Notes under the pieces: model-generated
Told to the model about the DNA's origin: nothing
Seen by the model: only the letters and a program-made list of their open reading frames with translations
The model's database searches: none
Source: Pirellulales bacterium
GTDB taxonomy: Bacteria > Planctomycetota > Planctomycetia > Pirellulales > JANQPP01
Direction of reading: 5' to 3'
DNA: 64,000 nucleotides
Assembly: GCA_028289405.1 (NCBI GenBank)
Contig: JANQPP010000121.1
Coordinates: 1 to 64,000 of the forward strand
Shown: in pieces, positions 4,588-16,215 of the stretch
Numbering within the stretch: position 1 is the first letter of the stretch
Layout: each line of letters starts with the position of its first letter
Made by a program: the position numbers and the translations under genes

Positions 4588-5046
4588 ATGACCGAGGCGT
4601 TAACCCAACGGAAACCGCGCGGTTTGTGGGGGAAGCGGGAGCCGCTCACGACTTGGCGCGGGGAGATGGAGGATCTGTTGTCGAGGTTTTGGGAGGTTGA
4701 GCGTGAATGGTTCGGAGGCGAGATCTCTCCGTCGGTGGATGTTGCTGAAACCGACAAGACCTTGGAAGTGCGGATGGATATTCCTGGCGTCACGGCCAAG
4801 GACATTGACATCCGGCTCAACCACAATGTGCTGACCGTCACCGGTGAGCGGAAGGAGGAGAAAGAAGAGAAGGGGAAATCGTTTCATCGGGTGGAACGCC
4901 GGAGCGGTAACTTTTCCCGAACGGTTACCCTCCCGTGCGCTGTCGCGGAGGATGAAGTGGCTGCCGAATATCGGGACGGCGTGCTGGCCATCACGCTGCC
5001 CAAAACGGAAGAGGCCCAAACCCGGAAAATCAAGGTCAAGGAATAA
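4588..5046 (+). CDS. Hsp20 / alpha-crystallin family small heat shock protein
   Basis: 152 residues, the usual length for a bacterial small heat shock protein. An N-terminal segment rich in Trp and Glu (about 1-40) precedes an alpha-crystallin domain. Diagnostic features are VDVAETDKTLEVRMDIPGV, the NVLTVTGERKEE strand with a charged loop, and the YRDGVLAITLPK version of the A-x-x-x-G-V-L motif close to the C-terminus. It is an ATP-independent holdase that binds unfolding proteins in the cytoplasm. The ribosome site is strong (GGAAAGGAGGGAG, seven or so bases before ATG). It is monocistronic, with a terminator 30 bases downstream. Inverted repeats in the leader may be involved in heat regulation. 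Confidence 0.95.
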   Translation: MTEALTQRKPRGLWGKREPLTTWRGEMEDLLSRFWEVEREWFGGEISPSVDVAETDKTLEVRMDIPGVTAKDIDIRLNHNVLTVTGERKEEKEEKGKSFHRVERRSGNFSRTVTLPCAVAEDEVAAEYRDGVLAITLPKTEEAQTRKIKVKE

Positions 5047-5077: not shown

Positions 5078-5111
5078 CCGAACGGCCCTTCCCGAAGGGC
5101 CGTTCGGTTTT
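5078..5111 (+). terminator. Rho-independent terminator of hsp20
   Basis: A perfect 13-bp stem, CCGAACGGCCCTT / AAGGGCCGTTCGG, with a CCCG loop and a following TTTT. It starts 32 bases after the hsp20 stop codon. Confidence 0.93.
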
Positions 5112-5115
5112 ACGT

Positions 5116-5219
5116 TAAGAGCCTGGGGACAAAACACCTCGCATCCGCGAAATTGCGCGTCCAGCGGGCGTGAAACGCCGATGGACGAAAGTCAGCGGAG
5201 GTTTTGTCCGTTGGCTTTA
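5116..5219. repeat. 104-bp palindromic repeat, copy A
   Basis: This segment is matched by a second 104-base copy at 16112-16215. Both begin TAAGAGCCTGGGGACAAAAC and end with GTCCGTTG-x-CTTTA. The outer arms are inverted repeats (GGACAAAAC at 5127-5135 with GTTTTGTCC at 5201-5209; the first ~20 bases also resemble the reverse complement of the last ~20). An inner hairpin is formed by CGTCCA and TGGACG around a TGAAA loop. It lies directly after the hsp20 terminator, in the gap between convergent genes. No transposase is near; it looks like a REP- or MITE-like element. Confidence 0.8.
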
Positions 5220-16111: not shown

Positions 16112-16215
16112 TAAGAGCCTGGGGACAAAACATCGCCGTATCCGCGAACCTGAGCGTCCGTCGGCCGTGAAACGTCGACGGAAAAAACAACGGTAGGTCT
16201 CGTCCGTTGCCTTTA
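16112..16215. repeat. 104-bp palindromic repeat, copy B
   Basis: The second copy of the element at 5116-5219, same length and orientation, roughly three quarters identical. The first 20 bases and the tail GTCCGTTG-x-CTTTA are kept. The inner hairpin here is TCCGTCG / CGACGGA around the same TGAAA-containing loop. Compared with copy A the pair A-T has become G-C, so base pairing is preserved while sequence changes. It lies between two minus-strand genes. Confidence 0.8.

Follow-up and report, generated by a model that had tools for sequence, protein, structure and literature searches.

The window, that is, the whole stretch of 64,000 nucleotides analysed here, is contig C198 of a MAG of 6.41 Mb, in 219 contigs, that is 94.6% complete. 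It carries, at 5116–5219 and 16112–16215, two copies of a repeat of equal length, in agreement with the original prediction. The mobile unit in each window copy is 99 bp, the outer TAA and TA included in the earlier count being a target-site duplication. An Hsp20-type gene (4588–5046) precedes the first copy, and between the two, at 5084–5114, lies a near-perfect, G+C-rich hairpin with TTTT after it (CCGAACGGCCCTTCCCGAAGGGCCGTTCGGTTTT), which appears intrinsic-terminator-like and is situated just upstream of the insertion. The features of the two copies are as follows:

5119..5217, + strand: copy A of the MITE, running from GAGCCTGGGGACAAAAC at the left to GTTTTGTCCGTTGGCTT at the right
5116..5118, + strand: left target-site duplication of copy A, TAA
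5218..5220, + strand: right target-site duplication of copy A, TAA
5119..5135, + strand: left terminal inverted repeat (TIR) of copy A, 17 bp, with a 13/17 match to the reverse complement of the right TIR
5201..5217, + strand: right TIR of copy A, 17 bp
5158..5187, + strand: inner hairpin of copy A, whose conserved loop, of the CCGTGAAACG type, reads GCGTGAAACG in this copy
16115..16213, + strand: copy B of the MITE, diverged
16112..16114, + strand: left target-site duplication of copy B, TAA
16214..16216, + strand: right target-site duplication of copy B, which has decayed and reads TAT

The two copies have common termini, TAAGAGCCTGGGGACAAAACA on the left and CCGTTG(G/C)CTTTA, with one mismatch, on the right, and the imperfect terminal inverted repeats and inner hairpin round GTGAAAC that had been predicted are present. 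Across the family the order is GAGCCTGGGGACAAAAC, a segment reading A(T/C)C(T/G)C..GCATCCGCGAA.., the hairpin, and finally GTTTTGTCCGTTGGCTT. The termini form imperfect inverted repeats, identical at 13 of 17 positions, in which 92–94% of cells are paired among 41 copies, while the inner hairpin, of ∼10 bp, has CCGTGAAACG as its conserved loop.

With copy A as the query, BLAST returned 41 places in the MAG, and a covariance model derived from 41 copies matched 100 places at E≤0.01, at least one of which was counted on both strands. The repeat thus recurs far beyond the window as a dispersed family of ∼65 strong copies, and up to ∼95 in total. That these are not chance resemblances is evident from the 17-bp left end, which occurs 50 times at ≤2 mismatches in this genome compared with no occurrences of the reversed control. 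Mean pairwise identity among the copies is 80% (66–97%), indicating that the family is old, and flanking DNA is not common to the copies, except where two of them adjoin, indicating that the ∼100-bp unit itself was dispersed. The element is short (<600 bp), devoid of coding capacity, multi-copy and dispersed, as is general for MITEs. Both orientations occur; integron attC sites were considered and dropped on the basis of the constant length and the presence of both orientations. The A-T to G-C exchange noticed originally at one inner pair is real and family-wide, with 20 copies having G-C, 18 A-T, two G-T and one an unpaired combination, and this pair distinguishes the two main interior subfamilies. 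Derivatives with interior deletions are also present, with total lengths of ∼70 bp (on contig C86) and ∼55 bp (C85), as is a chimera at G000:C184:2336-2436 (L120 441-532) comprising two right halves face to face with TAA on either side, a hint that elements of the right-end/right-end type can move.

Examination of the flanks revealed that, in 34 of the 57 copies with readable ends, the trinucleotide preceding GAGCC is identical to that following GGCTT. Shuffled pairing of the flanks gave a mean of 18.2 matching 3-mers, with 34 reached in none of 5000 shuffles. The match does not extend to 4 bp in any of the 57 copies, and the strongest links of all tested pairs of flank positions, −3/0 and −2/+1, are the very ones that a 3-bp duplication would produce. 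The third flank position is nearly always A and the duplication is mostly TAA, the remaining matches being TTA (three), CAA (two) and AAA (two). Some of the 3-mer matches could reflect descent in common if TAA belonged to the element. Since most junctions read TA...TA, mobilisation by an IS630/Tc1-mariner-like transposase inserting at TA, as for RUP or Correia elements, was considered, and a dinucleotide test for a TA-only duplication was at first positive. However, this was superseded by the 3-bp result: the match covers 3 bp and no more, including in the TTA, CAA and AAA variants, the ends are of GAG type, and resident IS5-type ISs have the same layout, all of which render an IS630-type origin very unlikely.

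The original prediction had also envisaged a REP/MITE family mobilised in trans, of which the MITE portion holds and the REP portion does not. REP/REPIN-type palindromes are moved by RAYT, a Y1 HUH transposase, via single-stranded hairpins, and the MITE is likewise palindromic, intergenic and present in many copies; moreover, a frameshifted RAYT is located ∼460 bp from one copy. A search with PF01797 for a RAYT partner gave two matches. The first, the sole RAYT that the genome contains, has on either side a GTAG-type GTAGGATGGGTGC..GCACCCATC REP of its own, which is unrelated to the MITE, and its closeness to a MITE copy is therefore a coincidence. The second is an IS200-like protein, the only further one of the Y1 type, and adjoins an IS66 transposase. 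The MITE also lacks the GTAG/GGAG/CGTC foot, having GAGCC and GGCTT ends instead, and has a 3-bp duplication; single-strand transposition by RAYT or IS200 is not known to make a target duplication. Mobilisation by RAYT is accordingly extremely improbable. The separate REP/RAYT system is to be found at G000:C167 near 21190 (L062 1181-1818), where the inverted GTAGGATGGGTGC..GCACCCATC REPs bracket the frameshifted gene as palindromes GTAGGATGGGTGC/GCACCCATCCTAC.

The layout of the element, with GAG-type ends and a 3-bp repeat, points instead to the IS1031 group of the IS5 family. Members of this group have GAG-type ends and an exclusive 3-bp TNA repeat, with ends of 17 bp, e.g. GAACCTGTC... (PMC12016507), ISLrh for instance having the 17-bp GAACCTGTCTAGTATCT and a TGA repeat (PMC12016507). 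The MITE duplications conform to TNA in that TAA and TTA dominate, with CAA and AAA seen also. An IS on contig C8 of the same MAG is bordered by TAA|GAATCCGTCTTCAAAT...|TAA, although its transposase is broken, and in a related genome (G052) ISs are bordered by TTA|GAGCGTCTAACAAAAC...|TTA (contig C10) and TTA|GAGGCTGACAAACAAC...|TTA (C267), with a further one (C150) flanked by TAA and TTA, which are not identical 3-mers. The transposases of the C8 and G052 ISs are of the IS5 family (NCBIfam NF033580), and G052 has intact 268-aa IS5-type ORFs. The ends of these ISs, and of that on contig C42 of the MAG, are similar to those of the MITE, not identical. The exact 17-bp end is present on both sides of palindromes of 73–90 bp in genomes G034 and G052, flanked by TTA in G034 and in one G052 copy.

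Searches using end patterns in the MAG itself, the exact 17-mer in 397 genomes, and PF13340, PF01609 and PF13359 recovered no autonomous copy whose ends are identical to those of the MITE. Similarly, no intact IS5-type transposase was found in the MAG, in which three DUF4096 hits look broken or split; with the MAG being 94.6% complete, this does not prove absence. One DUF4096 relic, between two copies on contig C75, was rejected as a partner on the grounds that it lacks inward-facing element ends at its borders. It is nevertheless very probable that the MITE belongs to an IS5/IS1031-type family, of an ordinary kind in which the landing in stop codons and the conserved hairpin stand out. The mover would then be an IS5-type transposase, judging from the layout and the similarity, as opposed to identity, of the ends; the parent would carry the ends GAGCCTGGGGACAAAAC/AAGCCAACGGACAAAAC, and the cognate mover may be extinct or unassembled in this MAG.

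Covariance model matches were obtained in only five of 397 genomes in the order, and exact left ends in only three of the 397. The right-end 20-mer had no match in the genome or viral contig collections, and the MITE had none in the plasmid and phage collections. The single copy in a genome from a different family (G010) shares 96% identity with one of those in this MAG, which suggests either horizontal spread or a mis-binned contig. That copy (G010:C143, L063 1500-2458) is separated by 20 bp from a DDE_Tnp_1 gene, on that gene's 3' side, and the adjacent ORF was rejected as a transposase partner, being without such ends and having no second copy for comparison. At G052:C97 (L187 1497-1601), a long palindromic variant of the MITE, with GGGGACAGTCCC-type inner palindromes, is situated only a few bases past the end of a tRNA-like sequence.

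The position of the copies with respect to genes was examined using a gene caller based on codon usage, for which the window served as training sequence. Copies lie between divergent genes in six cases, convergent genes in 11 and co-directional genes in 35. Seventeen of 59 neighbouring genes have their 3' end at −4 to −2 of the element, i.e. on its terminal TAA; the nearest other gene 3' end outside the element is at +6, and only one is deeper inside it. Were these genes truncated by insertion, approximately two thirds of the gene ends would run deeper into the element, out of frame. The proteins concerned look complete: the asparaginyl-tRNA synthetase at one stop-codon site is matched by its model to the last residue, and DUF1579, 3HCDH, ABC2 and Alginate_exp proteins at other such sites end at or near the ends of their profiles. 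The enrichment at stop codons is probably the outcome of purifying selection against insertions in genes.

The hairpin itself was examined by folding and by analysis of covariation. The fold of copy A is better than those of shuffled sequences (z −5.0), whereas that of copy B is not (z −0.95). In an alignment of 24 sequences, which included six diverged copies from a genome in another family of the order (G029), 90.9% of cells are paired in the named structure, and 40 cells have both sides changed, as opposed to 14.7 for shuffled and 2–14 for slid versions of the structure. The covariation of the hairpin is therefore real, and conserved pairing extends across diverged copies. The G029 copies (L103, L106, L109, L111, L112 and L113) constitute a second, diverged MITE family of ∼104 bp with the CCGTGAAACG loop and another stem (GCAAGCGG/CCGCTTGC).

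Selection on the hairpin at each site, as a structured RNA or mRNA 3'-end element (a terminator, stabiliser or processed small RNA), could account for covariation round a conserved loop that is found also in a second planctomycete family, and for placement straight after stop codons. However, when each copy was compared with its six nearest relatives, private mutations fell on paired and unpaired columns at 5.46% and 5.56%, respectively, and in the hairpin these changes left 22 pairs broken, 11 as wobble pairs and two compensated. Equal mutation of paired and unpaired positions indicates that pairing was kept in the source lineage, and not at each host site. Furthermore, there is no Rfam match at E≤1, the copies occur in both orientations with matching target duplications, and the window copies have no T-run after the stem. 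Site-by-site selection is thus highly improbable; the originally suggested processed RNA finds no favour in these data, and the covariation, although genuine, belongs to the evolving source element rather than to selection at individual sites.

The maintenance of pairing in the source lineage suggests either a need for the hairpin during movement or templated correction, and the palindromic chimera on C184 suggests that the latter can happen. Two MITE families in different planctomycete families have kept the loop and the pairing with the stem sequence replaced, and for this reason it is conceivable, albeit unlikely, that the inner hairpin and CCGTGAAACG loop form a functional part of the element, as a DNA or RNA hairpin bound by the transposase or a host protein for spread, with the copies at stop codons serving secondarily as bidirectional mRNA 3'-end stem-loops. 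Real covariation between subfamilies, alongside equal decay of paired and unpaired bases, is a useful caution against deducing a functional RNA from covariation in dispersed repeats alone.

The IS5/IS1031-type reading of the MITE can be set out as follows. An IS5-family (IS1031-like) transposase would cut at T-N-A and move the gene-less ∼100-bp element in trans, each insertion leaving a 3-bp direct repeat, mostly TAA. In this GC-rich, gene-dense genome, insertions within genes would presumably be disruptive, and so the survivors would be those that are intergenic or exactly in native stop codons, where a TAA stop could be rebuilt, either from the duplication or from bases at the end of the element itself, and the protein left intact. 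The hairpin would be inherited from a source lineage in which it stayed base-paired while its sequence changed, whereas after insertion each copy decays under no visible selection. The MITE is a clear example of a mobile element riding in stop codons, and TNA target choice together with selection would permit insertion at the last codon even of the essential asparaginyl-tRNA synthetase gene. It represents an apparently undescribed, high-copy family in a planctomycete lineage that would be tied to an IS5-type mechanism.

Comparison with known systems places the element among several of similar appearance. It resembles REP/REPIN sequences with RAYT (PMC3733652, PMC2817692) in being palindromic, intergenic and of high copy number, but differs in having no cognate RAYT or GTAG/CGTC foot and in having a target duplication. 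RUP of Streptococcus pneumoniae (PMC3049150) is comparable in length (∼107 bp), copy number (∼110) and folding, and has IS-like ends, although these resemble IS630-Spn1, and both host and ends are different. MITEAba12 (PMC6382973) is a MITE of 113 bp with 16-bp imperfect ends that is moved in trans by a resident IS; it has 9-bp duplications and a parent, ISAba12, with matching ends, whereas here the duplication is 3 bp and no intact parent was found. Finally, although the MITE is ∼100 bp without a transposase, and no transposase-bearing copy was found to have exactly its ends, it shares with the IS1031 group of IS5 (e.g. ISLrh, PMC12016507) the 17-bp inverted repeats starting GA(G/A)CCTG and the 3-bp TNA duplication, and IS5-type transposases with these borders are resident in its own genome and in that of a relative.
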